From Streptomyces sp. NBC_00239 (lineage in GTDB: Bacteria; Actinomycetota; Actinomycetes; Streptomycetales; Streptomycetaceae), in NCBI RefSeq assembly GCF_036194065.1, contig NZ_CP108095.1:6758001-6822000 (forward strand): a stretch of DNA of 64,000 nucleotides, read 5' to 3'. Below the pieces are notes generated by a model. The model saw only the letters and a program-made list of their open reading frames with translations. It did no database searches and had not been told where the DNA came from. This document shows, piece after piece, positions 1,396 to 54,247 of this stretch; within the stretch, counting starts at the first letter, position 1, and each line of letters begins with the position of its first letter. Made by a program: the position numbers and the translations under genes.

Positions 1396-2142
1396 TCAGC
1401 GGCGGCGGCCGGCCGGGGCGGGCGGAGCGGCGGCCGGTGCGCTGGGCGTGGTGGGGATACGGGCGGGCGCGGGACAGGGGCAGGAAGCCGACTTCTCGCG
1501 CTCGTCACCGGCGACTTCCTGCGGGCAGGGTGCTCGGTGGGGGTGTACTGCTTGCCGGTCGGCGAGATCGTTTCGGACGTGCCGCAGGTCGGAGGCGAGG
1601 ACGTGGAGCCGCTCGTCGGCAAGGTGGCGCAGCCGGGCGGCCGTGTGCGGGTCCGCGGGGTGTCCGAGGTCCTGCAGGAAGTCGGCCGCGGTGTGCAGGA
1701 CTTTGGTGAGGGCCGCCAGGATCCCGTCGTGGGTGGCGGTCAGCTCCGTGAGGGTGTCGGCAACCTCTTCGGTGCTCTCGGCTTCCCGGATCCGGACCGC
1801 GAGGTGTCGGACTTGGTCGCCGAGGGTGAGGTAATGCGGTTCGCGTCGCTCGGTGGCGAAGACGGGGTCGGTGTCGAGGTCGTAGCCGACGGTTTGCAGG
1901 CGGGCCACGGCTCGGGTGGCGAGGCGGATTTCCTCGTCCTGGTCGAGGCCGGTGGGCAGGCGGTGGTAGGTCTCGTGGCGGCGGACCACGGGGACGAACC
2001 CGGTGCGCTCAAGGAGGCTGTGGGCTTCCGGATCGCCTCCACGGGCGAGGACTTCACCGGAGTGCGGATCGCGCCGGATGGTCAGGACACGTTGGGCAAG
2101 GGCCAAGAAGAGAATGCTTTCTGCAAGGGAGAGGCGGGTCAG
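1396..2142 (-). CDS. Unknown element protein, 248 aa, probable CTG start
   Basis: The conserved-looking body starts LTRLSLAESILFLALAQRVL and includes TGFVPVVRRHETYHRLPTGLD, a segment I associate with small plasmid proteins of Streptomyces. The frame has no ATG, GTG or TTG at the junction with the upstream gene. A CTG at 2142-2140 overlaps that gene's TGA as CTGA, so I take it as the start; a TTG 12 codons later is the alternative. Residues 100-190 are predicted helical (REAESTEEVADTLTELTATHDGILAAL). The last 50 residues are basic and proline/alanine-rich. Role unknown. Confidence 0.65.
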   Translation of the reverse strand: MTRLSLAESILFLALAQRVLTIRRDPHSGEVLARGGDPEAHSLLERTGFVPVVRRHETYHRLPTGLDQDEEIRLATRAVARLQTVGYDLDTDPVFATERREPHYLTLGDQVRHLAVRIREAESTEEVADTLTELTATHDGILAALTKVLHTAADFLQDLGHPADPHTAARLRHLADERLHVLASDLRHVRNDLADRQAVHPHRAPCPQEVAGDEREKSASCPCPAPARIPTTPSAPAAAPPAPAGRRR

Positions 2143-2897
2143 CGGCCCCGGGGGGAACGGGGCGCCGGGAAGCCGGCGGGGAGACGCGGGGAAGGGCTTG
2201 CGAGCGGGGCGCCGAGATGCTGACCTGCCCTCTCCATGAGGCGGCGCGCGACGGCCAGATGCCGGTGCGCCTCGTCGGACAGGTGCGCCGCGATGCTGGG
2301 GTCGAGTCGCTCGGTGGTGGGCCGCGTAGCGGTCAGCATGTTGGCTTTGAAGGGGCTGACGTGGTGCTCTCGGGGGGAGAGAAGACCAAGGTCTGCTTCG
2401 ATACGCCGGCATTCCGCGGCCAGGACGTGGTGAACCTGCCTGGGCAGGGCCGCGCGGTTGCCGTCCTCGCGGATCAGGTTGGCGAGCAGGTCGAGGCGGT
2501 GGGACTGGTCTCGAACAGCGATCCACCTGCTTGGATTCGGTTCGCCGGGCGGTGCGATCCCTGCGACGCGCGCGAGCCGGTAGCCGACCTCGGACCATTC
2601 GGCGGGAGTGAGTTCCCGGTCCTTGGGGTGCAGGCGGACGCTGGCGTGGAAGATGACGCGGGGGTCGCCCCTGTAAGTGGCGGGGAACGGGTGGAGCCTG
2701 CGCGGGTCGTCGATGTGCTGGGCCCACTCGACCGAGGTCCAGGTCCGGTCGTCGTCGGTGAAGTAGTCGAGGTAGTGCCAGTGGGCGACGATCGTGCCCT
2801 CGGTGGTCAGCCCCTCCTGGTCGCTGACGGGTCGGCCCAGCGCTTCGGCGAGCCCGTCCACTGAGGACATGCTCGGCTCGTGCACCGTAGGGATCAT
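2139..2897 (-). CDS. Relaxase-domain relative lacking the histidine triad
   Basis: ATG at 2897 overlaps the upstream TGA (ATGA); 252 aa. Residues 80-160 align without gaps to the nuclease domain of the relaxase at 43072-44808. The shared skeleton is a SVR strand, a W-rich helix ending in GIAP, then W-[AI]-AVR and REDG, and a helix ending in GL. Where the relaxase has HADDHIH (H124, D127, H128, H130), this protein has DQSHRLD (D130, H133, R134, D136), so all three metal-binding histidines are gone. It is probably a non-catalytic DNA-binding or relaxosome partner derived by duplication. The homology is my reading of the two translations. Confidence 0.7.
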   Translation of the reverse strand: MIPTVHEPSMSSVDGLAEALGRPVSDQEGLTTEGTIVAHWHYLDYFTDDDRTWTSVEWAQHIDDPRRLHPFPATYRGDPRVIFHASVRLHPKDRELTPAEWSEVGYRLARVAGIAPPGEPNPSRWIAVRDQSHRLDLLANLIREDGNRAALPRQVHHVLAAECRRIEADLGLLSPREHHVSPFKANMLTATRPTTERLDPSIAAHLSDEAHRHLAVARRLMERAGQHLGAPLASPSPRLPAGFPAPRSPRGR

Positions 2898-3313
2898 CGG
2901 ATGCCGGCCCGGCCGTCGGCGACGTGGACGAGCTGGTTCAGCTCGGTGATTGAGTACCAGCCCACATCGACGGACTCGCTGCCGGGGAACTTCGGCACCA
3001 GGTAGTCCTGCAGGGCCCGCTGGTAGATCAGGCAGTCGGGGCAGTGCGCGGAGAGGTGGACGAGGTAGCGGGGGTGTCCGGTGATGAAGCTGCGTGCCCC
3101 TCCCTCCGGGTTGCGCAGGCGCCACCCGTCCTCGTTCGTCGGGGTGTGCCAGGACGGGGTGACCACCGTCATCGCGTCGCCCCACAGGGTGCCGTCGTCC
3201 ACACCCTTGATGACCACGATCCGGTCGCCGGGGGCGAAGTGCTCGTGGGTGATGTCCCGCTCGGGGGTGACTGCATCGGCGGGTATGAACGCGGCGCGGT
3301 TGGCGTCGGGCAC
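2894..3313 (-). CDS. Unknown element protein, 139 aa, first gene of leftmost operon
   Basis: GTG start at 3313, preceded by GGAAGGAC at good spacing; an upstream TTG at 3367 has no ribosome site. It contains HFAPGDRIVVIKGVDDGTLWGD, a small beta-barrel-like segment, and a CPDC pair around HLSAHCPDCLIYQ that could bind zinc. It is the first gene of the operon running left, 66 bp downstream of the hairpin at 3379-3403. The stop overlaps the next start by 4 bp. No family recognised. Confidence 0.7.
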   Translation of the reverse strand: MPDANRAAFIPADAVTPERDITHEHFAPGDRIVVIKGVDDGTLWGDAMTVVTPSWHTPTNEDGWRLRNPEGGARSFITGHPRYLVHLSAHCPDCLIYQRALQDYLVPKFPGSESVDVGWYSITELNQLVHVADGRAGIR

Positions 3314-3354
3314 GGCAAAAGTCCTTCCACGAAGGTGCCGCGGGGAGCGGCTGG

Positions 3355-3366
3355 TGAAGTACTTCA
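3355..3366. promoter_or_regulatory. 12-bp perfect palindrome TGAAGTACTTCA
   Basis: A perfect dyad in the gap between the minus-strand operon start (3313) and the hairpin repeat (3379). Its position fits an operator for the leftward operon, but no copy was found at the other two hairpin sites. Confidence 0.35.
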
Positions 3367-3378
3367 ATGGTCTGGAGA

Positions 3379-7313: not shown

Positions 7314-8363
7314 CTACCTGCGGTTGCGTGAGGCGGCGATCTGCAGGGGCGGGGCGGGGAGAGCGGCTGCCGTGCGGACCGGGGGGAGGACTGTCCGGGG
7401 CCAAGAGGCTCGGCTGACGGAGCGGGCGAGGTCGACCAGGTCCTGGCCTTCGAGCAGCCACACCGCCAGCGGATCGGGATCGAAGGTCTTCTGCGGCTCC
7501 GTGGCGGCTTCCTGCGGCGGGGCTGGCTGGCCGAATACGGCATCCATGTCTTCCAGGAACGCCTGCTCATGTGGGTTGAGTTGGGTGTTGCTGGCGCGCA
7601 CGGTGCTGATGATGTGCGGTGCGGCGTCGGCGAAGCGGGCGAAGGCGTCGGCCAGGTCATGCTGGGGCGGATCTGTGACCGTGCCGGGCTCGTACGCCTC
7701 GTGGGCCCAATCCAGATCGTCCCTGAGGGTGATCAACTGCAGCCGCCAGAAGGCATGGTGGTATTCGGCGAGGAGGGAGGAGCTGACCTGGTGGGCGGCG
7801 TGAGCGTGCGCGTCTCCCACTGTGATGCTGGAGGGCCCGGCAACCTCTGGGGTCAGGTTCATGTCCGCCGGGATGAGTGCGCCGACGCGGTACTGATCGC
7901 GGCCGGGGACCGGTACGACGGCCAGCTCGACGCCGCTCTCGCCGCGAAGGATCGCCGCGGCCAGCAGACGCTCGGTCTTGACCGTGTGCGCGAGGGGGTC
8001 GGCGCGGGGTGTCCACAGGTCGTACAAGAGGTCCTCTTGCACTATCGGGACCGGGTAGTTCTCGACCCGCACGCTCCACTGGCCGGGCAGGTTCTCACCA
8101 AGCTCGCGGGCGAAGTCTCCGATGTAGCGGCTGCCGTTGGTGGCGACCAGGGTCTCGTGCGCCAGAGCGGTGCCGCCGAGGGCGGCGAGCGACTGGCGGG
8201 CGCGGGCTATGTCGGTCAGGGGCGTGACGTAGTTGCCGTCGCTGTTCTTCTCGAATCCTGCGAGTTGGAGCGCGGTCCGGGCCCAGCGCCAGTTCTCGCC
8301 GGACACGAGGCCGACGATGCCGTCGTGGCGGCTGGTGAACAGGGTGATCTCGGACGAGGTCAG
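7314..8363 (-). CDS. Unknown element protein, 349 aa, probable CTG start
   Basis: CTG at 8363-8361 overlaps the upstream TGA (CTGA) and sits six bases after GGGAGG. A GTG at 8306 is in frame but has no ribosome site. The protein begins LTSSEITLFTSRHDGIVGL. The N-terminal third (WRWARTALQLAGFEKNSDGNYVTP) resembles the strand-helix layout of other element proteins here. A central helical region and an acidic C-terminal segment (FLEDMDAVFGQPAPPQEAATE) follow. No catalytic motif is seen. Confidence 0.65.
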   Translation of the reverse strand: MTSSEITLFTSRHDGIVGLVSGENWRWARTALQLAGFEKNSDGNYVTPLTDIARARQSLAALGGTALAHETLVATNGSRYIGDFARELGENLPGQWSVRVENYPVPIVQEDLLYDLWTPRADPLAHTVKTERLLAAAILRGESGVELAVVPVPGRDQYRVGALIPADMNLTPEVAGPSSITVGDAHAHAAHQVSSSLLAEYHHAFWRLQLITLRDDLDWAHEAYEPGTVTDPPQHDLADAFARFADAAPHIISTVRASNTQLNPHEQAFLEDMDAVFGQPAPPQEAATEPQKTFDPDPLAVWLLEGQDLVDLARSVSRASWPRTVLPPVRTAAALPAPPLQIAASRNRR

Positions 8364-8817: not shown

Positions 8818-9252
8818 TTAGCGGGTGCGGCTGGGCTGTGTGGATGCGGCTGGTGTGGGGGTGGCCGGCGTGGTCTGCGGCGGCTTGGAGCCCCAGGCCC
8901 GTGCGGTGGCGTACTGGGGCGAGGCAGTGGCGGCGGCCTGCGGTACTCCGATGCGGTACCACTCGCGCGGGTCCCGGACCGGCCCGGTCTGTGCCGTCTT
9001 GGTGTTCGCGGGATCGAGGGAGTAGTCGGCGTGGACGTGGTATCCGCTGCTGCGCAGGCTCTCGACGGCCTGGCGGGTGCGGCGGGGCCCGTCGTGGGTG
9101 GGGGCCGTCAGCAGGTACACGCCGTGCAGGCCGTGAAGGGGCTGGAAGCCGAGGCGGGTCAGGTACCACTGGCTGATGTGGTGGGGGATTCCTTGGGCGG
9201 AGGCGACGTACCCGTACCTGGGGTGCGTGCCGACGACGAACTGTTCGGGCAG
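8818..9252 (-). CDS. Unknown element protein, 144 aa, CTG start
   Basis: AAGGAG is followed after five bases by CTG (9252-9250). No ATG, GTG or TTG lies in frame for dozens of codons on either side, so CTG is the only credible start. It begins LPEQFVVGTHPRYGYVASAQG, a beta-rich start. Next come HHISQWYLTRLGFQPLHGLHGVYLL and RTRQAVESLRSSGYHVHADYSLDP, an alpha/beta pattern. The tail is Thr/Pro-rich. The pattern 'GF-x-P-L ... Y-L-L' followed by 'AVESLRSSGY' recalls small two-layer folds, but I cannot name it. Confidence 0.65.
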   Translation of the reverse strand: MPEQFVVGTHPRYGYVASAQGIPHHISQWYLTRLGFQPLHGLHGVYLLTAPTHDGPRRTRQAVESLRSSGYHVHADYSLDPANTKTAQTGPVRDPREWYRIGVPQAAATASPQYATARAWGSKPPQTTPATPTPAASTQPSRTR

Positions 9253-9268
9253 AAAGACTCCTTGTGGA

Positions 9269-9856
9269 TCAGCGGCGCGTGGTGCGCGATGGGGAGGCGG
9301 GGGCGGAGACGCTCGTGGCGACCGGGGTGGTGGACAGCTTCGGCGCGGTTCGGGGCACCCGGCCCGGGCCAGGACCTGTCGGCGCCCACATCGCCGCGTT
9401 GTCGGTGAAGGGGTAGAGGGGGTCGGTCGCCCACCCGACAACAGGACCGCGGTGCTGTTCGCTCAGGCTGATGACCTCGATGCCGTGCGGGTGCAGCACG
9501 TACCCCCACTCCAGATCGTCTGTGGCCTCGGGGTTGACGGTCATCCGCTGCGGGGGCGAGCCGTCCAGGGTCCAGAGGTTCTCGGGCTGAGTGCTCGGCC
9601 AGGTCTCGCCGCCGGTGAGCGCGAGGAACAGCTCCGGGGGAGCGTGGTCGAGGAGGTCGGTACCCAGCTCGTCCCAGCCGATGGCCACGTCGTCGACCAG
9701 GTGCCGGGACATGGCTTCCAGGTCACAGTTGAACCTGTACTGGTAGGCGGTGAGGAGGAGGGGGAGATGGTGGCTGGGCAGCCCGTCGAGATGGACGTAG
9801 ATGCCGTCGTACCCGCCGGCCTCGGTGGGTCGGGCGATGAAGGAGCGGGTGGTCAT
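9269..9856 (-). CDS. Unknown element protein, 195 aa
   Basis: ATG at 9856 overlaps the upstream TGA (ATGA). It starts MTTRSFIARPTEAGGYDGIYVHLDGLPSHHLPLLLTAY, and a central DLEWGYVLHPHGIEVISL hairpin follows. Acidic segments surround DDVAIGWDELGTDLLDH. The tail is Pro/Thr/Ser-rich. Aromatic-rich beta segments suggest a compact soluble domain. No family recognised. Confidence 0.7.
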   Translation of the reverse strand: MTTRSFIARPTEAGGYDGIYVHLDGLPSHHLPLLLTAYQYRFNCDLEAMSRHLVDDVAIGWDELGTDLLDHAPPELFLALTGGETWPSTQPENLWTLDGSPPQRMTVNPEATDDLEWGYVLHPHGIEVISLSEQHRGPVVGWATDPLYPFTDNAAMWAPTGPGPGRVPRTAPKLSTTPVATSVSAPASPSRTTRR

Positions 9857-10611: not shown

Positions 10612-11183
10612 CGGGTCCGGCCGGGCGGGAGCGCGGTGGTCGGGGGTGTCACGGTGTGTGTATTGGCCGCGAGGGCGCCGCGGGTGGTGATCATCCGGCT
10701 GATCTCGGTTGCCTTGCCGCGCAGTTGCTGGACGGCCATGCCCAGGTCGGTGCCGACGAGATCGAGGTACGCCTGGATGACAACCCGGACGTCGTCGGGC
10801 GGTGGGGTCCGCTCAGTGGAGGAGTGCCGGATGCTCGCGTGGAGGAAGCCGAGACGGTCCACTACGTGGCTCAGGTGGGCCAGGGCCGTACCGATAGGAA
10901 TCGCGCACTGGGCGAGGGACGCGGTGCCGAAACGCTCGTACTCGGTGTAGTGGGTGAGCTTCTGGGTCTCGTAGCGGCTACTGGCGGCAAGCTCCTCGCA
11001 GACTTCGGTCAGGATCACGCCGAGGTCGCCAACCATGGTGTGGATGTCCGGGGTGATGTCGGCGCCGCGGCGCAGCTCTTCAGCCTTCGGAAGGTCGTTG
11101 GAGATCTTGTCCACGGTTCGTGCGAGCTGGAGGAAGTAGTCGGGATTCGTGATGTCAGGAATGGACTGTTCACGGCCTTTCAA
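10608..11183 (-). CDS. Unknown helical protein, 191 aa, directly after VirB4-type ATPase
   Basis: TTG at 11183-11181 overlaps the ATPase stop (TTGA), so translation is coupled to the conjugation ATPase. It begins LKGREQSIPDITNPDYFLQLARTVDKISNDL. The whole protein is helical and heptad-like (AHLSHVVDRLGFLHASIRH; YLDLVGTDLGMAVQQLRGKATEISRM). It may be a small structural or chaperone-like partner of the transfer apparatus; that is inferred from position only. Confidence 0.65.
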   Translation of the reverse strand: MKGREQSIPDITNPDYFLQLARTVDKISNDLPKAEELRRGADITPDIHTMVGDLGVILTEVCEELAASSRYETQKLTHYTEYERFGTASLAQCAIPIGTALAHLSHVVDRLGFLHASIRHSSTERTPPPDDVRVVIQAYLDLVGTDLGMAVQQLRGKATEISRMITTRGALAANTHTVTPPTTALPPGRTR

Positions 11184-12697
11184 TGCATTCGGGCGTCGGT
11201 ATCGAACAAGGCCTGCTCGGCGGGGTGGAGCAGATGCTGGACGATGAAGGACCGGCCTGCGACCTTCCACAGGCCGCGCCCGCGGCTGAGGTGGGAGATG
11301 GCTTCGGTCTCGACGGAGGTCAGGCCGAGCAGGGTGGCGGCTGCGTGGACCTGGTCGGTTTCCTGCCGGTAGATGATGCGGGTGGAGCAGTCCGCGAGGA
11401 GGCCTTCGGCTAGGGCGCGGCCCTGGGATCCGGCGTCACCGGCGGTCAGGAGGTCGGAGAGCCGGTGGATGACCATGAGGTTGGCGATGCCGAGTCCGCG
11501 GGAGAGCTTCCACTGGGACTGCATGCGCTGCAGCAGCGCGGGGTGGCGCATCAGGCGCCACGCCTCGTCGTAGACGATCCACCGTCGGCCGCCGCGCGGG
11601 TCGGTGAGGGCGGACTCCATCCAGGCGGAGGCGCAGGTCATGGCGAGGACGAGTGCGGTGTCGTCTCCGGATCCGCCGAGGCGGGACAGGTCGATGGACA
11701 GCATCGGGGTGGCCGGGTCGAAGGCGACTGTGGAGGGGGCGTCGAACATGCCGGCCAGGTCACCGTGGACCAGGCGGCGCATGGCGTGGGCGAGGTCGCG
11801 GGCCGCGTCTCCGAGGTGGCCGGAGACGGTGCCGGCTGCTTGGTCGAGGAGGGCGGGCTGGGCCAGGGTGTGGGCGATGTCGCCCAGGAGCGGGGTGCGG
11901 CCAGCTGCGGCGGCGGCCTTGACGACGCCGTCGAGGGTGATGTCGAGGGCGGTGTGCTCCATCGGCATGAGGTCGCGGCCCAGGACGGTGCGGGCGAGGG
12001 AGCCGAGCAGGAGCAGGCGGCGCTTTCGGATTTCACCCGCCCAGTCGGCCTCTGTCACGGACGGGGGGCGGGGGGCGGCGTCCATGGGGTTGAGGCGGCC
12101 GGGCAGGCCGGGGCCGAGCGCGATCGAGGTGCCGCCGAGGGCCTGCGCGACGGGCGTCCACTCACCCTTGGGGTCGCAGGGGACGTACACGCGGTATCCG
12201 AAGGCGACCGACCGCAGCGCGAAGCTCTTCGCGAGGGCGCTCTTGCCCTGGCCGATCACCCCGGCGAGCAGGATGTTCGGGTTGGTGAACCCGTCGACCT
12301 TGCCGTACAGGGTGAACGGGTCGAAGACGAAGGCGGCTTCGGCGTGGACGTCGCGGCCGATGTAGATGCCGTCGGCTCCGAGACCGCCTTCGGCGAGGAA
12401 CGGGTAGGCGCCAGCGGCGACGGCGGTGGTCATGCGGTGGGCGGGCAGCCGGAGCTTGTTGGCCCGGGCGCTGGCGGCGCCGGGCCGTCCGGCGGCGGAG
12501 TAGAGGGGGAGGGGCATCTCCGACTCGGCGGGCTCGTGTTCGCCGGAGGAGGAGGTGGACTCGGCGCGGGCTTTGGCCTGGGCTTCGGCGAGCTGACGGC
12601 GGGCTGCCTTGCGGGCATGGCGGTCGGTGCCGTGGGGGGTGAACAGGGGGCTGGCGGAGGCGCGGCGGGCGCGGCGTCCGGGGCGGTGCTGGGACAT
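11180..12697 (-). CDS. VirB4/TraC-type conjugation ATPase
   Basis: 505 aa, ATG start. Walker A GVIGQGKSA (residues 146-154), Walker B RRWIVYDEAW (371-380) and the following VIHRLSD (409-415) mark the VirB4/TraG P-loop ATPase fold that powers type IV secretion. The N-terminal 80 residues are basic and disordered. The usual N-terminal VirB4 domain is missing here and appears instead in the SCO6880-type gene at 13214, so the function is split over two proteins, as in related actinomycete clusters. It acts at the inner face of the membrane. Confidence 0.9.
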   Translation of the reverse strand: MSQHRPGRRARRASASPLFTPHGTDRHARKAARRQLAEAQAKARAESTSSSGEHEPAESEMPLPLYSAAGRPGAASARANKLRLPAHRMTTAVAAGAYPFLAEGGLGADGIYIGRDVHAEAAFVFDPFTLYGKVDGFTNPNILLAGVIGQGKSALAKSFALRSVAFGYRVYVPCDPKGEWTPVAQALGGTSIALGPGLPGRLNPMDAAPRPPSVTEADWAGEIRKRRLLLLGSLARTVLGRDLMPMEHTALDITLDGVVKAAAAAGRTPLLGDIAHTLAQPALLDQAAGTVSGHLGDAARDLAHAMRRLVHGDLAGMFDAPSTVAFDPATPMLSIDLSRLGGSGDDTALVLAMTCASAWMESALTDPRGGRRWIVYDEAWRLMRHPALLQRMQSQWKLSRGLGIANLMVIHRLSDLLTAGDAGSQGRALAEGLLADCSTRIIYRQETDQVHAAATLLGLTSVETEAISHLSRGRGLWKVAGRSFIVQHLLHPAEQALFDTDARMH

Positions 12698-13213: not shown

Positions 13214-14677
13214 CTACAGAGCGGTGCGGGCCAGGGGCAGCGCGGCGAGGGTGAGGGCTTCGGGCTGCTGGTAGATCAGGCGGCGAAGGTCGACCTGGGC
13301 GGATACGGCGGCGGTTTCGATCTGTGCGCACGCGGCGTCGAGTTGGGCGTCGGTCTCGGCGGAGACGGTCAGGAGTCCGGTGAGGGCGACGTCGGCGTGC
13401 CCGGCGATCAGCTGGCGCTCGCGTTCCTTGACGTCCCCGTACTCGACGGAGTCGGCCTCGGAGTCGACCTGTCCGCGGCGCTGGCGTTCGGCGGCGTCGG
13501 CGATGATCGTGGCCTTGGTGCGCTGCACGTCGCGCAGCGCGGACTCGAGTCCCTGGGGCACGTAGATAAGGGAGAAGGAGCGGCGCACGCCGGCGGTGAA
13601 CATCAGCCCGTGCAGGAAGCCCGACGTGGTCTCGGTGCGCGGCCAGTTCTCCACCCAGTAGGTGGCGTGACGGGCGCTGTCGGTGATGACGCGGTCGTAC
13701 TCCTCGACCTGGACAACGGGACCTGCGGCGGCCGGTTCGGCCTCGGCCCTGCCGTGCTCGGACCACTGCTGCAGCCCGGCCAGGGCCTTGGGGTCGTACG
13801 CGGTGCGGACCACGGCGGCTATCTCGCGGGCGGTGAGCCAGCCGGTGACCATCAGTCCGGCGCCGCGCGCGGCCTGGGCGACGGAGGCGGTGGTCTGCCC
13901 GAGCACGGTGAAGGCACCGGGCAGTCCGCCGCCGGCCTGGGAGATGAGCCGCTTGGCGGCCTTCAGGTCCAGGGAGATCGCCAGGTAGCTCTCGTGCGGG
14001 GCGGCGGCGGGCCCTGCGGAGGAGACGAGCTCGGAGTACACCTGCCCGGCGACCGGGGCCTGGGGATGGCCGTGGGTGGTCCAGTGCCGGGTCAGGGTGT
14101 CGCCGCTGTCGGGGACGGTGCGTTCCAGGACCTGCACGGTGGCGATGTGGCCGCTGCGGGCGATGCCGGCCAGGGCCCGGCCCCACGAGGTGACGTTGCT
14201 GTTCTGGGTGGCGGGGTCAAGGAGGGCGAAGGCCCTGCTGGAGACGCGGGCGATGGCGGTCAGGGTCTGGGCGTGGGGGTCGTGGACGGCGGCGGCCTGC
14301 GATCCGGAGGGGGTGACCACGCGCAGCGAGGCGGCGGTGCCGGGCAGGTGGAGCACACCGTCGGTGCGGGGCCTGGACACCACCCGGGCCAACCACAGGC
14401 TCTGGCCGGTGCGCCGGCGCTGGGCGTAGCGCAGGACGATCGGCGCCCAGTCGATCAGGGAGCGGCCGTGGCGCCGGATGACGACGAGGGCTGCGACCGC
14501 GGCCCACAGGGGGGTCAGGGCCAGGGCGCCGACGAGGCCGGTGGAGACCACGGTGGCCAGGAGCAGGGCGAGTGCGGTGGAGGTGAGGACGAGCTGGGGC
14601 AGGGACAGGCCGAGCAGGATGCCGCGCCGCGACCTGTGGGGGAATTTGATCGTGAGGGGGAGGACAAGGTCAGACAA
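13214..14677 (-). CDS. SCO6880-type conjugation protein (PrgI-like plus VirB4 N-terminal region)
   Basis: 487 aa, TTG start. Residues ~20-68 hold two membrane helices (LLGLSLPQLVLTSTALALLLATVV and GALALTPLWAAVAALVVI), as in PrgI/VirB3-like proteins. The long cytosolic part matches the arrangement of the actinomycete SCO6880 family, which stands in for the N-terminal domain of VirB4. Two features of the family are visible: DRVITDSARHATYWVENWPRTE and SFSLIYVPQGLESALRDVQRTKATIIADA. It probably pairs with the ATPase at 11180-12697. Confidence 0.85.
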   Translation of the reverse strand: MSDLVLPLTIKFPHRSRRGILLGLSLPQLVLTSTALALLLATVVSTGLVGALALTPLWAAVAALVVIRRHGRSLIDWAPIVLRYAQRRRTGQSLWLARVVSRPRTDGVLHLPGTAASLRVVTPSGSQAAAVHDPHAQTLTAIARVSSRAFALLDPATQNSNVTSWGRALAGIARSGHIATVQVLERTVPDSGDTLTRHWTTHGHPQAPVAGQVYSELVSSAGPAAAPHESYLAISLDLKAAKRLISQAGGGLPGAFTVLGQTTASVAQAARGAGLMVTGWLTAREIAAVVRTAYDPKALAGLQQWSEHGRAEAEPAAAGPVVQVEEYDRVITDSARHATYWVENWPRTETTSGFLHGLMFTAGVRRSFSLIYVPQGLESALRDVQRTKATIIADAAERQRRGQVDSEADSVEYGDVKERERQLIAGHADVALTGLLTVSAETDAQLDAACAQIETAAVSAQVDLRRLIYQQPEALTLAALPLARTAL

Positions 14678-14772: not shown

Positions 14773-16125
14773 TCAGGAGCCGGTGGGCGAGGGACCGCTC
14801 GCGAAGGGACTGCTCGCGGCGGCCGGACCCTGCGCAGGTGCACCCTGCGGCGGGCCTTCCTGGGTGCTGCGGGGAACGGGACCCGTACCGCCCGAACCCG
14901 AGGGACCGGAGGGACCGGACGGGGAGGATCCGGTGCTTCCGCCGAGCTGGCCGCTGGTGTCCTGGCTCACGCTGGTCGGCGGAGGCTGAACCGCCTTGGA
15001 CAGCGCATCGGTTGCCGCACCCCCGCCGGAGGACGGCATCGGGGCGCTGTTCTGCTCGCCTCCGGAGCCACCGGTGGGGTTGGCGGCGATGTCGCCGGGG
15101 AACCCGGCGGGGCCCTGCGGTGCCGCGCCCGCTCCGGCAGCTGCGCCGGCTCCGCCGGTGGCGGCCATCGCGGCTGCCTTGCGGGCTGCCTGCTCGGTGT
15201 GCTGCTTGGCCATCTGCGCGCCGGTGCCACCGGCCCGGTGGAGCGACTCGCCGTCGGTGCCCTCGGCCGCCCAGTGGACAAATTTGAACGTGGCGTACGG
15301 GCAGAGCAGGACCATCATCATGATCACGACTCCGGCGAGGCAGTCGGCGAGGGCGCCCAGACCGTCCTTGGCCTGGGTCTGGCCCAGGGCGGAGATGCCC
15401 AGGAGGAACACGATCGTCATCAGCAGCTTAGAGACGACCAGGGTGGCCGTGGCTTCGATCCAGCCCCGGCGCCAGCGCCGCGCGGCCTCCCATCCGCCTC
15501 CGGCTCCGGCGAAGACAGCCAAGGTCACCAGGACGAGGATGCCGACCTTGCGGACCATCATCACGCACCAGTAGAGGATGGCCCCGATGCCGGCTCCGAT
15601 ACCGACGATGCCGGGGATCATCCAGCCCAGCGGCACCATGGAGGCGACAGAGCTGGCCTTGACCATGCGGCGCACCGACTCTTCGATCGAGGTGCCGGCT
15701 GCCGCGAACAGGCCGTCACTCAAGGCATCGACGACTTCGATGGCGACGGTGGTGCCGGCGATGGCGACGAAGCAGAAGATCACGCCGCCGGCGGTGCCGG
15801 TGAAGGCCTGGGTCAGGGCCTGGCCGTCGCGCCGGATCGCGGCCCGGATGAGCTGGGCGCAGAAGGTGGCGACCAGGATTGTCAGGCCGATGGGCAGCAG
15901 CAGCTCGTAGTTGGCGACGAACCAGCCGGCGCGCAGGTCGACCTTGGTGGTCGTGTTGACGGCTTCGGCGGCGAGGTCGGCGGATGCGGCGGCGAATTGG
16001 CCGGCCGACTTGGCGATCCAGTTGCCGATGCCCTCGGTGATGGCCTTGCCTGGGTCGTTGACGAAGTCGATGGCGTCGGCGGCGCTGCAGAGCTTGCTGG
16101 CGATGGGGATGGAACAGAAGTCCAC
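14773..16125 (-). CDS. SCO6881-type polytopic transfer protein (TrbL/VirB6-like)
   Basis: GTG start at 16125 with AAGGAGG nearby; 450 aa. The N-terminus has MDFCSIPIASKLCSAADAIDF, then five to six membrane helices between residues ~70 and 285 (LLLPIGLTILVATFCAQLI; WMIPGIVGIGAGIGAILYWCVMMV; VGILVLVTLAVFAGAGG; LLMTIVFLLGISALG; ALADCLAGVVIMMMVLLC). The last ~160 residues are Gly/Pro/Ser/Ala-rich and disordered. It likely forms part of the membrane channel. The neighbour order (SCO6880-type, VirB4, DUF6112-like) supports this. Confidence 0.85.
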   Translation of the reverse strand: MDFCSIPIASKLCSAADAIDFVNDPGKAITEGIGNWIAKSAGQFAAASADLAAEAVNTTTKVDLRAGWFVANYELLLPIGLTILVATFCAQLIRAAIRRDGQALTQAFTGTAGGVIFCFVAIAGTTVAIEVVDALSDGLFAAAGTSIEESVRRMVKASSVASMVPLGWMIPGIVGIGAGIGAILYWCVMMVRKVGILVLVTLAVFAGAGGGWEAARRWRRGWIEATATLVVSKLLMTIVFLLGISALGQTQAKDGLGALADCLAGVVIMMMVLLCPYATFKFVHWAAEGTDGESLHRAGGTGAQMAKQHTEQAARKAAAMAATGGAGAAAGAGAAPQGPAGFPGDIAANPTGGSGGEQNSAPMPSSGGGAATDALSKAVQPPPTSVSQDTSGQLGGSTGSSPSGPSGPSGSGGTGPVPRSTQEGPPQGAPAQGPAAASSPFASGPSPTGS

Positions 16126-16157: not shown

Positions 16158-16841
16158 TTACGGGGCGACGCTCGGGGCGAGGGAGACCAGGGCGCAGTCG
16201 GAGCTGGGGCGGCACTGGACGGCGAGGGTGACGGCGCGGTCCTCGGCGCCGCCCCCGCCGCCCTTCCAGACGATGGTCTGCTTGCCGGTGACGGTGACCG
16301 CGTAGATGTACGCCTCGGTGATCGCGGAGGGGTTCTCGGCGAGGGCCTGTTTGAACGCCGAGGGGAAGTGGGCTTCGCCCACGGCGGCGGTGGCGTACTG
16401 GGCGTTGTCGGCCATGCGCGACCACAGCACCGGGTCCGGGACCTGCCCGGAGATCGCCGTCCAGTCGGTGTACTTCGTCTCGCTGGTCATCCACGCGTGC
16501 ATGCCGGCGAGGTGCTGGTCACGGCTGGTGGTGCGGGTGTCGTACGACCAGAGCAGCACCGCCGCCGCCTTGGCGTAGGTGAGCGGGTCGGTGAGCTTGG
16601 GCGGAGCCGGGACCGAGCCCGTACCGACCGAAGGCTTCGGGGCCGTCGGGGCGGGCGAGCTCGCTCCCGGGGCTGCGGGGGATGCGTCGGTCTTGGTCTG
16701 GCCGTCGCGGGAGGTGAACCAGGCGGTCAGTCCGGCGGCTCCGAGGAGCGCGGTGATGACCATGGCGGCGACGAGGATCCGTCGCCTGGTCGTCCAGTGC
16801 GTGGTGGCCCGGTGAAGGGGGGAGAGGGAACGTTTCGGCAC
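16158..16841 (-). CDS. Single-TM conjugation accessory protein, VirB8/TcpC-like role possible
   Basis: GTG at 16841 overlaps the stop of the upstream small gene by one base; 227 aa. The basic cytosolic N-terminus (VPKRSLSPLHRATTHWTTRRR) precedes one membrane helix (ILVAAMVITALLGAAGLTAWF). A Pro/Ala linker and an extracytoplasmic domain of about 140 residues follow, containing AAAVLLWSYDTRTTSRDQHLAGMHAWMTSE and a disulfide-capable CRPSSDC near the end. This topology equals that of VirB8/TcpC-type scaffold proteins. The assignment is by topology and context, not sequence identity. Confidence 0.75.
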   Translation of the reverse strand: MPKRSLSPLHRATTHWTTRRRILVAAMVITALLGAAGLTAWFTSRDGQTKTDASPAAPGASSPAPTAPKPSVGTGSVPAPPKLTDPLTYAKAAAVLLWSYDTRTTSRDQHLAGMHAWMTSETKYTDWTAISGQVPDPVLWSRMADNAQYATAAVGEAHFPSAFKQALAENPSAITEAYIYAVTVTGKQTIVWKGGGGGAEDRAVTLAVQCRPSSDCALVSLAPSVAP

Positions 16842-17155
16842 TACTTGACCTGCGTTCCGAGTGCGGAGAAGAACGCGACGATGCCGTTGGCGGCGCCCAG
16901 GCCCAGGGCGGCGCCCGCGGCTACGACGGCGCCCTTCTTGCCGTTGGCCTCGGCCTGGTGGCCGCCGCTGTGGTGGCCCCAGGCCCACACGCCGAGGGAG
17001 ACGGCGAGGGCGCCGACGACGGCGATGATGCCGAACATGTTGATCGAGTTGACGACCTTCTTCAGGACGTCGAGCCCGGGGAGGCCGCCGTCCGTTGGAG
17101 TGATTCCGGGGTCGTAGGCGAGGTAGAGGACGCGGTCTGCGAGTGAAATGGGTAT
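16841..17155 (-). CDS. DUF6112-like small two-helix membrane protein, start possibly ATA
   Basis: Two membrane helices (MFGIIAVVGALAVSLGVWAWG and GAVVAAGAALGLGAANGIVAFF) flank a short glycine/histidine loop. This matches the small DUF6112 proteins of actinomycete T4SS clusters, which resemble VirB2/TrbC subunits. The first ATG (17038) would remove a segment YDPGITPTDGGLPGLDVLKK that reads as the family's usual N-terminus. Upstream in frame there is no ATG, GTG or TTG. AAGGAG followed after seven bases by ATA (17155-17153) is the best-placed start; ATT at 17149 is another. With ATA it is 104 aa. Confidence 0.7.
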   Translation of the reverse strand: MPISLADRVLYLAYDPGITPTDGGLPGLDVLKKVVNSINMFGIIAVVGALAVSLGVWAWGHHSGGHQAEANGKKGAVVAAGAALGLGAANGIVAFFSALGTQVK

Positions 17156-17270: not shown

Positions 17271-18410
17271 CTAGCTGTTGAGCGCGGGGATGCGGCGGAC
17301 GGCGAGGATCTGCCAGTCGCCGACCTTCTCGATCCGCACCGGTTTCGTTGTGCGCGGTGCGTTGATCACCAGGCCGGCGCCGATGTACATGCCGACGTGC
17401 TCGGGGACGGCGGCGGTGCCGCGGGTGAAGAGCAGGTCGCCGGGCTTCAGAGTGTTCGCCGGTACGGCGTCACCCTCCTTGACCTGCGTGTACGTGGTGC
17501 GGGTGAGCTGGATACCGGACTTGGCGTAGGCCTGCTGCATGAGGCTGGAGCAGTCGCAACGGCCCATGGGGTCGGGGCCGCGCGGCGCGGTGCAGGTGCC
17601 GCCCCACTGGTAGAGGGTGCCGAGCTGGTGCATCGCCCAGTCGATCGCGGTACGGGCCTTCGGCGAGGCGTCAGCAGGGATCTTGTACCCGGCGGGGACG
17701 GTCCCTTCCGGGATGGAGCCCCAGTCGGCTCCGTCCTCGCCCGGCTTGCAGCCACCGGCACCGCCCGGAGCGGTACCCGGTTCCTGACCGGTCTGGCCTG
17801 TGCCGCCGTTCGGCAGGGTCTTGACGATGGCCTGCTGCAGGGCCCGGGCCAGCGGCTCCCACTGCGCGTACGCGTCCGGGAATCCGGAGAGCTGCACGGC
17901 CTGGGCGGCCTGGGTGATGGTCATCTGCTGCCACCCCTTGACCTCCAGCAGCCCCTTGTAGAACTTCGTGGAGGCGTAGACCGGGTCGCGGATTTGCTCG
18001 GGGGTGCCCCAGCCCTGGCTGGGCCGCTGCTGGAACAGCCCGAGGCTGTCGCGGTCGCCGTAGGTGAGGTTGCGGAGCCGGGATTCCTGGATGGCGGTGG
18101 CGAGCGCGACGACCTGTCCGCGCTCGGGCACCTTCAGGGCGATGCCGGTGGCGACGATGGTCTTCGCGTGGGGGATCTGCTCGTCGGGCAGTTCCAGACC
18201 CTCGACGCGGATCGAGCTGTCGCCGCCCTGGCCGCCGAGGATCGCCGCGACCTGCTTGGCGACCGCGGCGGCATCGACGCTGCTGCCGCCGGGAGTGCAG
18301 GCGGCGCTTCTGGAGGCGGCGCCGCTTCCGGCCGCGGCCATGGCGGCGGTGGTGGCGAGGACGAGGGGGGAGAGGCAGAGGACGCCGATGGCGGCGGCTA
18401 CGGCCTTCAA
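17271..18410 (-). CDS. Secreted NlpC/P60 peptidase with lysozyme-like domain
   Basis: TTG start; 379 aa. N-terminal signal sequence (AVAAAIGVLCLSPLVLATTAAMAAAG). Residues ~85-195 form a lysozyme/SLT-like segment with ATAIQESRLR (E109) and SLGLFQQRPS. The C-terminal NlpC/P60 domain carries DCSSL (catalytic C287) and EHVGMYIG (H338). Two-domain wall hydrolases of this kind open the peptidoglycan for the mating channel, like VirB1/TcpG. It lies at the 5' end of the transfer operon. The TTG overlaps the stop of a tiny upstream frame (TTGA). Confidence 0.9.
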   Translation of the reverse strand: MKAVAAAIGVLCLSPLVLATTAAMAAAGSGAASRSAACTPGGSSVDAAAVAKQVAAILGGQGGDSSIRVEGLELPDEQIPHAKTIVATGIALKVPERGQVVALATAIQESRLRNLTYGDRDSLGLFQQRPSQGWGTPEQIRDPVYASTKFYKGLLEVKGWQQMTITQAAQAVQLSGFPDAYAQWEPLARALQQAIVKTLPNGGTGQTGQEPGTAPGGAGGCKPGEDGADWGSIPEGTVPAGYKIPADASPKARTAIDWAMHQLGTLYQWGGTCTAPRGPDPMGRCDCSSLMQQAYAKSGIQLTRTTYTQVKEGDAVPANTLKPGDLLFTRGTAAVPEHVGMYIGAGLVINAPRTTKPVRIEKVGDWQILAVRRIPALNS

Positions 18411-30835: not shown

Positions 30836-30853
30836 CTGGCCCTGGAGGATCAC

Positions 30854-36336: not shown

Positions 36337-36371
36337 TCCGCTCCCCGCTCCGTACCGCCTTGGAGGCGCCC

Positions 36372-37106
36372 CTGAACCCCCCCTCTTCCCGCTACCCGTC
36401 CACCCCCAACCCTGGCCCCTTCTACTGGGTCACTCCCCGCCACCTCGCAGGCGACGACGGTGTCCTCGCCGACCGGATCTGCGACTCCCTCGCCGAGTCC
36501 GGCTGGACGAGCTGGACGACCGCCCGCAGCACCCTTCTCCTCCCGAGCCCGTCCGGGCTGTGCGGCGCCGAGTGGATCCGTACCGACCACGCCTTCTTGC
36601 TGGGCGGACTGCCCGTGGCCTGGCAGATTTCCGCCCGCACGCACCCGGGCGATGCCCTGGCTGAGTGGAACGCATACTTCACCCCCGATACTCCGCACGA
36701 GGCCGTCGCGGACTTCCTCCTCGCCGTCGAGGCCCGGACCGATCCCACCGTCAACTACTGCGGTCCGGAGAGCGTCATGTCGGCGCTGACGGCCCTGGGA
36801 TGGCTCCGGGACTTCGACCACCCGGAGACCACTGCCTGGGATGCGGGAATGTCTGCCGGCTTCACGTGGGGGGAGCTGCCGGCGGGGATCCAGGACGGGG
36901 ACCCGCGCCCGGACCTTGTGGGCTGGCAGGCGTGGGCCGAACCGGTCCTCGGTGCCCCCTACCTGTGGTGCGCGACCTTCAGCGCCAGCACCCCGCACGA
37001 CCTGGTCGCGGCCTTCGCCGCATCGATCGCCTCGCCCGCCCCGGTGCGACGCCGAATCCTGCCGGAACTCGCCGCGGGACGTCTGACCTTCAGCCTCCCC
37101 GGCTAA
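36372..37106 (+). CDS. DUF317 protein with two repeats, CTG start likely
   Basis: GGAGG at 36362-36366 is followed after five bases by CTG at 36372. A TTG at 36360 is in frame but lies on the ribosome site itself. 244 aa. Repeat 1: YWVTPRHLAGDDGVLADRICDSLAESGWTSWTT with HAFLLGGLPVAWQISARTH and TPHEAVADFLLAVE. Repeat 2: GWLRDFDHPETTAWDAGMSAGFTW with PYLWCATFSASTPHDLVAAFAASI. Family role unknown. Neighbour genes are also DUF317-like. Confidence 0.8.
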   Translation: MNPPSSRYPSTPNPGPFYWVTPRHLAGDDGVLADRICDSLAESGWTSWTTARSTLLLPSPSGLCGAEWIRTDHAFLLGGLPVAWQISARTHPGDALAEWNAYFTPDTPHEAVADFLLAVEARTDPTVNYCGPESVMSALTALGWLRDFDHPETTAWDAGMSAGFTWGELPAGIQDGDPRPDLVGWQAWAEPVLGAPYLWCATFSASTPHDLVAAFAASIASPAPVRRRILPELAAGRLTFSLPG

Positions 37107-40407: not shown

Positions 40408-40408
40408 T

Positions 40409-43071: not shown

Positions 43072-44808
43072 TCAAAGTCCACGGCCCCGGTCACGGCTGT
43101 CCCGGCGGGCGTCGGCGGGGCCATTCGTGTGCGAAAGCGACGGCTGGCTGGTGGGATTGCTGTGGAGCGGCATGGCGGACGCGTCGGCGGGGAGACCGGC
43201 CAAACGGCGCAGCCGCCACACCAGGACGTCACTGACCGAGGACGCGGTGTCCAACTCCCGTCGTCCAGTGGCCTGCACGAGGAGTTCAGCGGGATCGTGC
43301 CCAGCCGCTTCGGCGTCGGCAAGGGTGGAGGCGAGCGCCAGCCAGCCCGCCTCGGCCAGGACCTGCTCGGCGAGATGCGGCACCGCTGCGCGCAGGACGG
43401 CGGCATGCCGCCGCTGGAGTACGGGGGGCAACAGGCGGCCCCGCTGGTGCAGTGCGGCCATGGGGTGGCTGGCCGCGGCCTGGTAGGCGGCGCGCAGGTG
43501 TTCGGCGGCCTGGAGGGCAGCAGCGGCCTGCTGGGCGTGCTCCTTCTTTCCGTGCCAGGCTGCGGCGGCGGTGACGAGGAAGAACGCCATGTCGATAAGC
43601 ATCGCGGTGGTCGCCCCGTCCTCCCCTCGGCCGAGCGCCGGCCCGCCGTGCACGAGGTCGCGGGCGGCCTGGCGCAGGGTGCGGTCGTGACCGCGGGCGG
43701 CCCGGACGTGGGAGCGTGAGGCCCGCTCGAACGCGATGGCGGCCTCGCCCAGTTGCTTGCGGGTGTGGGCGGCGGAGGTCTTGGCGAGCGCGTCCAGGAC
43801 TTCGCCGGCCGCCGCGATGTGCGCGGAGATCGCGCCGTCGTCACCGTCGTCGAAGACCAGCACCGCCTGCCAGGCGGCGGTCGTCGCGGCCCGCCGCGCG
43901 GAAGCGGGCCCGGGCACCGAGCGCAACGGAGCATCTGCTGTGACTCCCTCGGTGTCCCGGTCGGGGGCCACCGTGGTGCTCCAGCGCTCGCGGATTCGGG
44001 GCAGGGACAGGTCCGGGGCGAGCCGTGCGCCGGGGTAGAACACCGGCTCGCCCTTCCTGTTGCGGTCGTCGGGGAGCGCGACCTTGTACCCGAGAAGATC
44101 GCCGGACGGGGCGATCCTCTTGTGAACGAGCAGACCTGCCGAGGCAAGGCGTTCGAAGAACTCCCCTTCGCTCTGGGTGCCGGCGACCGCACGGCGGACG
44201 GTCTCGCGCAGTTCTTCCCGGGCGGTCCGCTCGCGACCTTGGCGCTCGGCCTTGTGGCGCTCGGCGCTGGTGGGGCGCTGGGCTGCCGTGCCGTCACCGG
44301 TATGGAGGCGCCGCAAGCCGTAGTCGATCTCGATCTGGCGTGCTTCGGCCTGGGATCGGGCCGCATCGTTGTGAAGGCGGGGCTTGCGGCCGTCCTCGCG
44401 AACCAAGGTGGCGACGATGTGGATGTGGTCGTCCGCGTGACGGACAGCGGCCCACCGACACCCGGGCCGACCATCCTCGGGAGCGATGCCCGTAGCGGAA
44501 ACCATGCGCCGGGCGATGTCCGCCCACTGCTCGTCGGAGAGGACAGGATCCTCGGGGGCCGCTCGTACGGACAGGTGCCACACGTGCCTAGCCGGTCGCC
44601 GGCTCGGGGCGACGGAGTCGACGGGAAGATCCAGAAGCTGCTGCAAGGCCTGGTGGGTGGCTTCGGGATCGCGTCCGGGATCCGGCGCGAGGCTGTCCCA
44701 GGCGGCGACCAAGTGCGGGTCGATGTGCTCTTCGTGGGTGCCCGGACCATACAGGTAGTACAGCAGCCCGATGGTCCGGGTCCCCCGCTTGTGAACGCGG
44801 GGTATCAC
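43072..44808 (-). CDS. mobA: Conjugative relaxase, MobA/VirD2-like
   Basis: GTG at 44808 overlaps the MobC stop (GTGA); 578 aa. The N-terminal nuclease domain has the active tyrosines in GLLYYLYGPG (Y17, Y18, Y20) and the metal-binding HADDHIH (H124, H128, H130). It should nick the origin of transfer, stay linked to the 5' end, and be pumped through the secretion channel. The C-terminal half is long and helical, with Arg/Ala-rich segments (residues ~290-540), probably for translocation signals or partner binding. The pairing with MobC and the T4SS genes fits strand-transfer conjugation. Confidence 0.9.
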   Translation of the reverse strand: MIPRVHKRGTRTIGLLYYLYGPGTHEEHIDPHLVAAWDSLAPDPGRDPEATHQALQQLLDLPVDSVAPSRRPARHVWHLSVRAAPEDPVLSDEQWADIARRMVSATGIAPEDGRPGCRWAAVRHADDHIHIVATLVREDGRKPRLHNDAARSQAEARQIEIDYGLRRLHTGDGTAAQRPTSAERHKAERQGRERTAREELRETVRRAVAGTQSEGEFFERLASAGLLVHKRIAPSGDLLGYKVALPDDRNRKGEPVFYPGARLAPDLSLPRIRERWSTTVAPDRDTEGVTADAPLRSVPGPASARRAATTAAWQAVLVFDDGDDGAISAHIAAAGEVLDALAKTSAAHTRKQLGEAAIAFERASRSHVRAARGHDRTLRQAARDLVHGGPALGRGEDGATTAMLIDMAFFLVTAAAAWHGKKEHAQQAAAALQAAEHLRAAYQAAASHPMAALHQRGRLLPPVLQRRHAAVLRAAVPHLAEQVLAEAGWLALASTLADAEAAGHDPAELLVQATGRRELDTASSVSDVLVWRLRRLAGLPADASAMPLHSNPTSQPSLSHTNGPADARRDSRDRGRGL

Positions 44809-52625: not shown

Positions 52626-52634
52626 GAGGGGTGG

Positions 52635-53744
52635 TCAGGCGGCGCGAAGTGCGTCGGAGAGGGCGAAGAGGTGAGCGGCGTCAGCGCCGCGGCTGTCGGT
52701 CCGGGGCACGGCCAGTGGGATCACCGGCTGGGCTTCCTCGCGCGTGTGGACGTCGGCAGCGGCTGCCGCGCGGAGACGGTCAGCCAAGACGTTGGCGTCC
52801 ATGGACATCAGCTCCTCCGGGGTCAGGTCGCCCATGAGCGGGCTGATGCGGACCAGCCCGTCCCGACACTCGACCACGCGGCGGTGGTAGAGGCGGTGCA
52901 CGCCACGCACACCCCACCGCTCGAGCAGGGTTGACCGCGAGGCGAGGACGGTCTCGGGGAACCGGGCGGAGAGCAGAGTCCACAGCGCGTCCAACCGGTG
53001 GTACCCGCGCCGGTGCTGCCTCCACACCCGGAGCGCCGAGAGGCGGCTGCGGGCACCGGAGTAGGAGACTCCCACGACGAAGAGGAGGATGGAGACGACC
53101 AGCAGCATCGCCACCGAAGCCATCAGGCCCTTCGGCACGGTGCCGCCCTGCCAGCGGGTCGCGACGAAGACCGCCCGGACCGCGCAAGCCGCGGCCATGG
53201 CCAGCAGCCCGACCGCCGTGATCCACAACCCAGTGGAATGCGGGCGCGGAGAGAGCCGGGCATAGCGAACGGTCCAGACGCCCGCCGCGCCCAGCGCGTA
53301 CGTGAGATACAGCCCCGCAATGCCGTAGAAGGCGGCGAGCTGCGTGATCGTCATATCAGCCGAAGAGAAGCTTCCGGCGAAGGTCTCGTGCGGCACGGTC
53401 GTGGCCGCGACGACCAGCACCACCGCGACGCCGAGCACGACGACGGCCTCCAGACGCGCCCGCCGCCTGCTGGTCGCCCGATCGGCCGACGAATACAGGT
53501 AGAAGCACATCAGGAAGTACACCGTGCCGAGCAGCAGCAAGTTCTGCACAAGCTTCGCTGCACCGTGGCCGGCGACGGTGTCCATGCCACTCGCGCCTCC
53601 TGGCATGGCCACCGGGTAAGAGAGGGCGGCGCACAGCAGGCAGAGCGTCACGGACCGAAGGGCCCCGTCGCGGGGCGCCTTCGTAAGCTGGTACACCTTC
53701 CACGCCACGGCAGCGGCGAGGACGAGAAGGAACAGGACGGTCAT
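52635..53744 (-). CDS. MAB_1171c-type putative transporter
   Basis: ATG at 53744 overlaps the upstream stop in TAATG; 369 aa. Six to seven N-terminal membrane helices (VLFLLVLAAAVAWKVYQLT; LVQNLLLLGTVYFLMCFYLY; VVVLGVAVVLVVAATTV; ...; LMASVAMLLVVSILLFVVGV). A soluble C-terminal domain follows, with YHRLDALWTLLSARFPETVL and HRLYHRRVVECRDGLVRISPLM. This is the MAB_1171c/DUF6545 architecture, often next to ImmA/IrrE-like genes in Streptomyces. Substrate unknown. Confidence 0.8.
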   Translation of the reverse strand: MTVLFLLVLAAAVAWKVYQLTKAPRDGALRSVTLCLLCAALSYPVAMPGGASGMDTVAGHGAAKLVQNLLLLGTVYFLMCFYLYSSADRATSRRRARLEAVVVLGVAVVLVVAATTVPHETFAGSFSSADMTITQLAAFYGIAGLYLTYALGAAGVWTVRYARLSPRPHSTGLWITAVGLLAMAAACAVRAVFVATRWQGGTVPKGLMASVAMLLVVSILLFVVGVSYSGARSRLSALRVWRQHRRGYHRLDALWTLLSARFPETVLASRSTLLERWGVRGVHRLYHRRVVECRDGLVRISPLMGDLTPEELMSMDANVLADRLRAAAAADVHTREEAQPVIPLAVPRTDSRGADAAHLFALSDALRAA

Positions 53745-54247
53745 TACAGCCACCCCTGCCGGTCACCCAGCGCCAGGTTGACGCGCCGTACGGAGGGGTC
53801 GGCAGCGGGCGGTGGTCCTACCTGCTCCAGCACGGACGCCCACTCCATGATGATCGTGGCTGCCTTCTCCACCCGGCACTCCTCCGTGTCGTCGTAAGAG
53901 CACCGCTGGAAGAGCTGATGCACGTCGTCCGCTTCGCTGCCCGATACAAGCGACTCCCAGGGCGTTGCCTCCGAGACTTCGGCCTTCAGGTGGCACAGCT
54001 CGTGCAGGACGATGTGGTCCTGGTGGAGCTTCGTGGTGCGCTCCTGAACGACGATGATGTCGGCGAGCTTGTGATCGATCCAGAAGCCCAGCGGTCCCGG
54101 CATCGGCAGAGGCTTTTGCTGAACCACGATGGGACGGCCGCGCTGAGCTGCGAGCGCCATCCGGAGCTCGTCCACGCTTAGCGGAGGCTGGATGCCGAGC
54201 TCCTGAAGCTCCCGCCGTACGCGCCGGCGCAGTTGGCGGTCTGTCAG
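53744..54247 (-). CDS. ImmA/IrrE-type metalloprotease, CTG start likely
   Basis: CTG at 54247-54245 overlaps the TGA of the upstream short frame (CTGA). It gives LTDRQLRRRVRRELQELGIQ, the usual family start; 167 aa. The zinc motif HELCH (82-86) follows HQDHIVL, and a downstream EVSEATPW and ECRVEKAATIIMEWA provide the later acidic ligand region. These proteases cleave regulators (for example XRE repressors) in response to stress. It pairs with the MAB_1171c gene. Confidence 0.75.
   Translation of the reverse strand: MTDRQLRRRVRRELQELGIQPPLSVDELRMALAAQRGRPIVVQQKPLPMPGPLGFWIDHKLADIIVVQERTTKLHQDHIVLHELCHLKAEVSEATPWESLVSGSEADDVHQLFQRCSYDDTEECRVEKAATIIMEWASVLEQVGPPPAADPSVRRVNLALGDRQGWL

Follow-up and report, generated by a model that had tools for sequence, protein, structure and literature searches.

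We found that several genes of a mobile element in Streptomyces sp. NBC_00239 appear to be translated from CTG codons. The element lies largely within a 64,000-nucleotide stretch of the chromosome (C1:6758001-6822000, 69.6% GC; below, the window) and is best read, from its gene content, as a conjugative element of the type IV secretion system (T4SS) type that is present in a minority of Streptomyces genomes. Comparison with relatives indicates that weak starts (TTG, CTG and occasionally ATT or ATC) have long been kept in several of its genes. We consider it fairly likely, as a whole explanation, that the CTG starts are genuine and that weak initiation is held in place by selection. The argument begins with two adjoining genes, one of them preceded by a Shine-Dalgarno (SD) sequence:

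9269..9856, minus strand: gene adjoining the 9252 gene; ATG without SD in the window, CTG in most relatives found
8818..9252, minus strand: CTG-start gene of a conserved unknown family, 144 amino acids (aa)
9258..9263, minus strand: SD AAGGAG of the 9252 start, 5 nucleotides (nt) before the CTG, read from the sequence

The gene at 9269-9856, absent from the list of CTG starts in the first-pass annotation of this DNA, is the best case for a conserved CTG start. Across 59 distinct sequences its start column holds CTG in 45, TTG in nine, ATG in three and ATC in two, with neither CTC nor GTG, and 14 of 14 interior leucine columns contain CTC besides CTG. For the 9252 family, no CTC stands at the CTG column in the 84 sequences that could be placed (three of 87 could not), and all eight interior leucine columns mix CTG and CTC. 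Because CTC is missing from the start columns while CTG and CTC mix at interior leucines, the start columns behave, on this comparison, like initiation codons and unlike leucine codons. A third base fixed as G was found in these two families only. The picked start among the 87 distinct 9252-family sequences is TTG in 43, CTG in 39, ATG in three, GTG in one and none in one, the TTG form lying two codons further upstream than the CTG. Picked counts, here and below, leave out alignments starting after query residue 15, matches at locus ends and sequences identical around the start; start columns were curated, an automatic column search that ignored CTG having picked wrong columns in several families. 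In both families, as far as aligned starts can tell, CTG and TTG replace one another much more often than either is replaced by ATG or GTG, and the recurrence of CTG in two adjoining genes probably reflects selection rather than an annotation slip. None of the solved structures searched with the 9252 family profile matched.

The 9269 family also suggests the direction of change. In a midpoint-rooted tree of the 59 sequences CTG is widespread and occurs to either side of the root, ATG appeared a single time, in the clade of the window (three sequences, support 99/90), and TTG and ATC are nested inside. CTG on both sides of the root and a single origin of ATG make CTG most simply the ancestral state, the window's clade having switched to ATG; two of its three ATG sequences lack an SD of 4 nt. 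Among the 45 CTG sequences, 43 have an exact SD of at least 4 nt and 26 have no in-frame ATG, GTG or TTG from the upstream stop to the CTG; the next such codon downstream is at codon 25 (median). ATC at the start column, accompanied by an AAGG-type SD, occurs in two related elements (L141-L142 and L157-L158), one of which is the second element of the same genome.

The first-pass annotation had put forward seven CTG codons as starts. All seven lie at the positions given (2142, 8363, 9252 and 54247 on the minus strand), and the SD spacings are as described (AAGGAG-N5 at 9252, AGGAGG-N5 at 22114, GGAGG-N5 at 30854 and 36372, GGGAGG-N6 at 8363). The CTGA overlap is present at 2142, 8363 and 54247, and CTGA occurs at 36372 as well. 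When homologues were compared, 8363, 9252, 22114, 30854 and 36372 emerged as translation starts with high probability and 54247 as a probable start; 2142 did not survive the comparison. Besides 9252, the features concerned are:

7314..8363, minus strand: 349-aa gene starting with CTG, without a Pfam match; its CTGA overlaps the 8360 gene's stop codon
8370..8375, minus strand: SD GGGAGG of the 8363 start, read from the sequence
22114..22803, plus strand: CTG-start gene, 229 aa, no Pfam match
22103..22108, plus strand: SD AGGAGG of the 22114 start, read from the sequence
30854..31321, plus strand: CTG-start gene, 155 aa, no Pfam match
30844..30848, plus strand: SD GGAGG of the 30854 start, read from the sequence
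36372..37106, plus strand: CTG-start gene with a DUF317 (SPDY) domain, 244 aa (Pfam PF03771, 2.4e-24)
36362..36366, plus strand: SD GGAGG of the 36372 start, read from the sequence
53744..54247, minus strand: gene of 167 aa, probably starting at CTG; no Pfam match and no strong SD
1396..2106, minus strand: gene earlier read from CTG 2142; conserved start TTG 2106

Orthologues carry ATG, GTG or TTG at the start column of 8363, 9252, 22114 and 30854. At 8363, three relatives (94, 51 and 50% identity) share the CTG at the column, as do L163 and L164, and seven further sequences have it one codon off; many others have ATG or GTG (picked start, n = 70: ATG 34, CTG 14, GTG 14). The 22114 start is CTG in the window and in two relatives (71 and 72% identity), with SD lengths of 6, 12 and 8 nt, and the remaining 16 of 19 sequences have ATG (10), GTG (three), ATC (one) or none of these (two). 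The 30854 column (n = 14) reads TTG in eight, GTG in three, CTG in two and TAT in one. At 36372 the support consists of GGAGG-N5-CTG kept in three elements (the window and relatives of 89 and 58% identity) and a GTG two codons away in one distant sequence; the other four of the seven sequences differ and are too distant to be decisive. The claim that most of these genes have no suitable ATG, GTG or TTG is right for 9252 and 30854 but not for 22114, with an ATG seven codons downstream, or for 36372, with a TTG within its SD; homologues put both starts at the CTG column despite these nearby codons.

Of the 24 homologue loci compared for 54247, seven have GTG at the column, the closest two (72 and 71% identity) among them, two have ATG there, and seven have GTG one codon downstream; CTG was found only in the window. 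At 2142, 28 of 39 printed sequences have a TTG 11 or 12 codons downstream (2106), and in seven of these 28 an in-frame stop separates the two positions. As 2142 failed in homologues, a CTGA overlap alone is a poor guide to a start. Just beyond the window edge, CTG is the likely start of two more genes: that at -3958, where two elements have CTG and others GTG, and that at -3097, where two elements have CTG and others have a GTG close by. A candidate at 10563 (10135-10563, minus strand) has CTG in three close elements and CTC or CGC in three distant ones, and with CTC at the column its third base is not fixed.

A count of SD-CTG pairs had been proposed as a check on the genome as a whole. We counted them in 62 stretches of 20 kb from the strain's own genome (9.3 Mb; main contig 8.51 Mb), calling genes by codon usage. 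The bare motif is uninformative: GGAGGN5CTG occurs six times in the window against 5.79 expected, which is chance level, and three of the six are at gene starts. On both strands of the window, AAGGAGN5CTG occurs six times versus 0.29 expected, and only the 9252 copy is at a called gene start. Placement at gene starts, by contrast, is enriched in the element. For CTG codons no more than 36 nt from the coding onset, counting SDs of at least 5 nt at a spacing of 4-8 and leaving out SD matches directly beside an ATG, GTG or TTG codon, we found an SD in 7/48 cases in the element (CTC 0/49; non-NTG codons 15/1327) and in 4/494 in the chromosome sample of 561 genes from 36 stretches, which is the background level (non-NTG codons 166/12225). 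The difference (Fisher test, P = 7e-6) is descriptive, and the test is not independent of the finding, as five of the seven sites prompted it, 10563 is unsettled and the element limits come from the homology survey. When the whole window is counted and the search widened, the ratio is 6/79 versus 10/800. Six of the seven SD-CTG genes of the element have no ATG, GTG or TTG within 36 nt of the onset, and SD-linked codons near the onset number one ATG, three GTG, four TTG and seven CTG in the element versus 56, 30, two and four in the sample. Codons following an SD were also counted across all families (CTG 31/966, close to many other codons), but that count was set aside as too noisy, because relatives share sequence.

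Of the two origins that the first-pass annotation had suggested, element and host, the evidence favours the element, since related elements in other Streptomyces carry CTG starts. That Streptomyces initiates on CTG genome-wide could be argued from the loci with a 9252 relative, 79 of 80 of which are titled Streptomyces (best 80 of 115). The sampled chromosomal genes, however, have no SD-CTG excess, the genome has one IF3 match and the window no tRNA gene, so that we regard a host-wide trait as highly improbable. An element-borne initiation factor or initiator tRNA was rejected as well, with no tRNA in the window (flanks unscanned) and that single IF3 match genome-wide. Placement counts are 0/15 in the rest of the window, 1/193 in other neighbouring sequence and 5/180 in the smaller contigs; the last value is intermediate, and other mobile DNA may share CTG starts. 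On the smaller contig C4, a gene (L050 6734-7444, minus strand) has AGGAGG and CTG with no standard start within 36 nt of its onset, so the strain may use CTG starts in mobile DNA elsewhere as well.

If the true starts lay elsewhere, in an upstream extension, at a downstream GTG or across a frameshift, the SD-CTG pairs would be coincidental. This is the case for 2142, and the chance level of the bare motif and the standard codons in frame upstream of some CTG sequences point the same way, as do database annotations. Of 291 database proteins found for the 9269 family, the 120 listed have 21 different start positions, with 73 of the proteins beginning after the CTG, 21 before it and 26 at its column; the DNA behind these records was not checked singly, and some may have another true start. 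Such scatter suggests that gene starts in these elements are often misplaced. On the plasmid L269 (9001-9052 and 3950-4001), two coding sequences of this family are annotated from ATC, 17 codons (51 nt) past a GGAGG-CTG, in an annotation table that does not flag incomplete genes. Against starts elsewhere, orthologues have ATG, TTG or GTG at the exact column with no synonymous CTC, several sequences have in-frame stops close upstream, and downstream alternatives fall within conserved sequence. Moreover, the distance from the CTG to the nearest upstream TGA, taken without checking each sequence to be the stop of the upstream gene, falls into the three frames in 21, 12 and 3 of 36 sequences, and a fixed or programmed frameshift from that gene was rejected on this variation in frame. 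By this comparison starts elsewhere are unlikely for 8363, 9252, 22114, 30854 and 36372, and very improbable as a general account.

Initiator formylmethionyl-tRNA (fMet-tRNA) reads CTG with a first-position mismatch and low efficiency. Most likely, it would initiate weakly on the CTG codons of the element, with a strong SD at a distance of five to six bases raising initiation to a low, usable level; where another gene ends directly upstream, as in several cases, termination-reinitiation may add help. Selection would then keep output low or in a fixed ratio to neighbouring genes. In a genome of 70% GC, one T-to-C substitution could turn a weak TTG into CTG, and this would account for the presence of both at the same column. 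Mean SD lengths are consistent with such compensation: 8.7 for CTG (n = 3) versus 0.8 for ATG (n = 10) in the 22114 family, and 1.3 for ATG (n = 3) versus 4.2 for CTG/TTG (n = 54) in the 9269 family. Compensation was seen in the 22114, 9269 and 19878 families, not in all. Reduced expression, which the first-pass annotation had offered as a possible purpose, would fit the conserved weak CTG/TTG starts and the few GTG and ATG in two families. We also entertain, as an improbable extension, a start-codon regulon in which genes with CTG, TTG, ATT or ATC starts and strong SDs would rise jointly when host initiation fidelity drops; such a drop, through a shortage of IF3 or a change in initiator tRNA (as in stationary phase, for instance), would thereby tie conjugation to the state of the host.

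The main rival to selection for weak initiation is that the CTG starts are real but neutral, with NTG codons drifting under weak selection and a GC-rich mutation or fixation bias, without tuning. CTG, GTG, TTG and ATG do swap at one column in the 30854 and -3958 genes, and purifying selection on AUG is strongest in conserved, highly expressed genes (PMC5622118, excerpt), which would leave low-expressed genes freer. The conserved CTG/TTG and scarce GTG argue against drift: CTG prevails without any GTG at the 9269 column, and TTG is found in 23 of 23 sequences of a DNA methylase and in 60 of 62 of the 12728 gene. In addition, switches to CUG are very rare in reconstructions over 36 genome groups, with 2/61,358 from ancestral AUG, 1/5,080 from GUG and 1/2,468 from UUG (PMC5622118, excerpt). 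We therefore see drift alone as possible but rather unlikely.

Several observations weigh against genuine starts tuned by selection. An ATG, GTG or TTG lies in frame upstream in 19 of the 45 CTG sequences of the 9269 family and in 23 of 38 of the 9252 family. In the latter, an exact SD of at least 4 nt at a spacing of 4-9 precedes only 14 of 38 CTG codons, some AAGG, AGGA, GGAG or GAGG being present upstream in 37 of 38. The 13214 family lacks an SD whether the start is TTG or ATG, the 14773 family has nearly equal SD lengths (ATG 5.6 versus GTG 5.0), and in the 22114 family three GTG sequences lack an SD. No called gene lies closely upstream of the 22114 start itself. Related sequences in the family counts are, moreover, not independent. 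Finally, CTG may be too weak a start unless something else assists, because a mycobacterial selection with an SD present enriched ATT (9.8%) and not CTG (0.03%; PMC4633059, excerpt). Our confidence in the whole explanation is held at fairly likely because of the upstream in-frame codons and because its tuning half overlaps with drift.

The homology of called genes places the element from at least about -8.2 kb to +45 kb relative to the window, and the relatives indicate the genus Streptomyces. Most called genes in this span have counterparts in the stretches fetched from 18 other Streptomyces genomes and at a second place in the strain's own genome; four called genes at 33.6-41.7 kb have none. 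These limits are set only by homology to fetched stretches, and the left one coincides with the stretch end of the closest relative (G039). The 54247 gene lies beyond the part with homologues in fetched relatives, and its homologue in G039 is about 52 kb from that of 8363, so the element or island could extend further. Matches to the 8363 query occur in 20 of 199 genomes of the genus (own genome counted) and to the 22114 query in 32 of 199. A second, diverged copy of the element is on the same chromosome at 1.64-1.68 Mb (G000:C1:1641001-1681000; L141, L142), and in the relative G013 homologues of the two element halves lie about 2.3 Mb apart on one contig (L128-L129 and L130). A TraG/VirD4-like protein at L004:12766-14538 matches PF12696 (1e-33) and PF02534 (6.3e-21) and qualifies as a coupling protein, and the element encodes several DUF317 proteins. 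Other genes are:

11180..12697, minus strand: VirB4-like conjugation ATPase, ATG start (NF045971, 1.6e-20, 73 bits, below the cut-off of 325)
13214..14677, minus strand: SCO6880 family protein, TTG start (NF042935, 5.7e-126); picked start TTG 41/48, ATG 7
14773..16125, minus strand: SCO6881 family protein, GTG start (NF047967, 2.3e-164); GTG 25, ATG 8, TTG 7 of 40
16841..17149, minus strand: DUF6112 gene, likely ATT start (17149)
17271..18410, minus strand: NlpC/P60 protein, TTG start (PF00877, 1.8e-21); TTG 23/25
18944..19699, plus strand: the DNA methylase, TTG start (PF01555, 1.3e-29)
43072..44439, minus strand: possible relaxase (PF03432, E = 2.8e-4, below cut-off)

TTG is near-fixed in further element genes, the 12728 gene and that at 25045 (19 of 20), for picks no more than 5 codons from the aligned column. 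The DUF6112 gene has no ATG, GTG, TTG or CTG within 20 codons of its onset in the window. Read by eye, its start column holds ATG or GTG in relatives and TTG or ATC in other clades; the automatic pick disagreed, giving ATA in 6 of 32. An ATA start was rejected in favour of ATT 17149, as the position of the ATA is occupied by ACA or ATC in relatives, whose ATG or GTG comes two codons later.

The gene infC starts with the rare near-cognate AUU. The element resembles it in that a selected weak start would make initiation strength matter; infC, however, is a single autoregulated core gene, whereas here several unrelated mobile-element genes are involved, mostly with CTG. To our knowledge, CTG is usually treated as an isolated oddity and is not among the start codons of common gene callers. 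A search of the PubMed Central open subset, with subscription journals outside its scope, turned up no account of CTG starts being conserved in this genus or in its elements. The reconstruction of start-codon switches in 36 genome groups was reportedly based on annotated starts. Our data agree with that study in that non-AUG starts pair with stronger SDs; there, however, CUG switches were near-absent and CUG genes fell outside the SD analysis (PMC5622118, excerpt), whereas here CTG is the majority state, and apparently the deepest, in one family. In structural work, initiation complexes on CUG are described as having lower stability than complexes with AUG, GUG or UUG (PMC11497404, excerpt). 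T4SS-type integrative and conjugative elements of Streptomyces, described in a paper whose main text lacks the term 'start codon', share with this element a VirD4/TraG-like coupling protein and, as candidates matched here below cut-off, a VirB4-like ATPase and a possible relaxase (PMC9513070). In contrast to the mycobacterial selection, in which CTG remained unenriched with an SD present (PMC4633059, excerpt), CTG is the commonest and apparently ancestral start of a mobile-element family here, which would make it a natural system for weak initiation.

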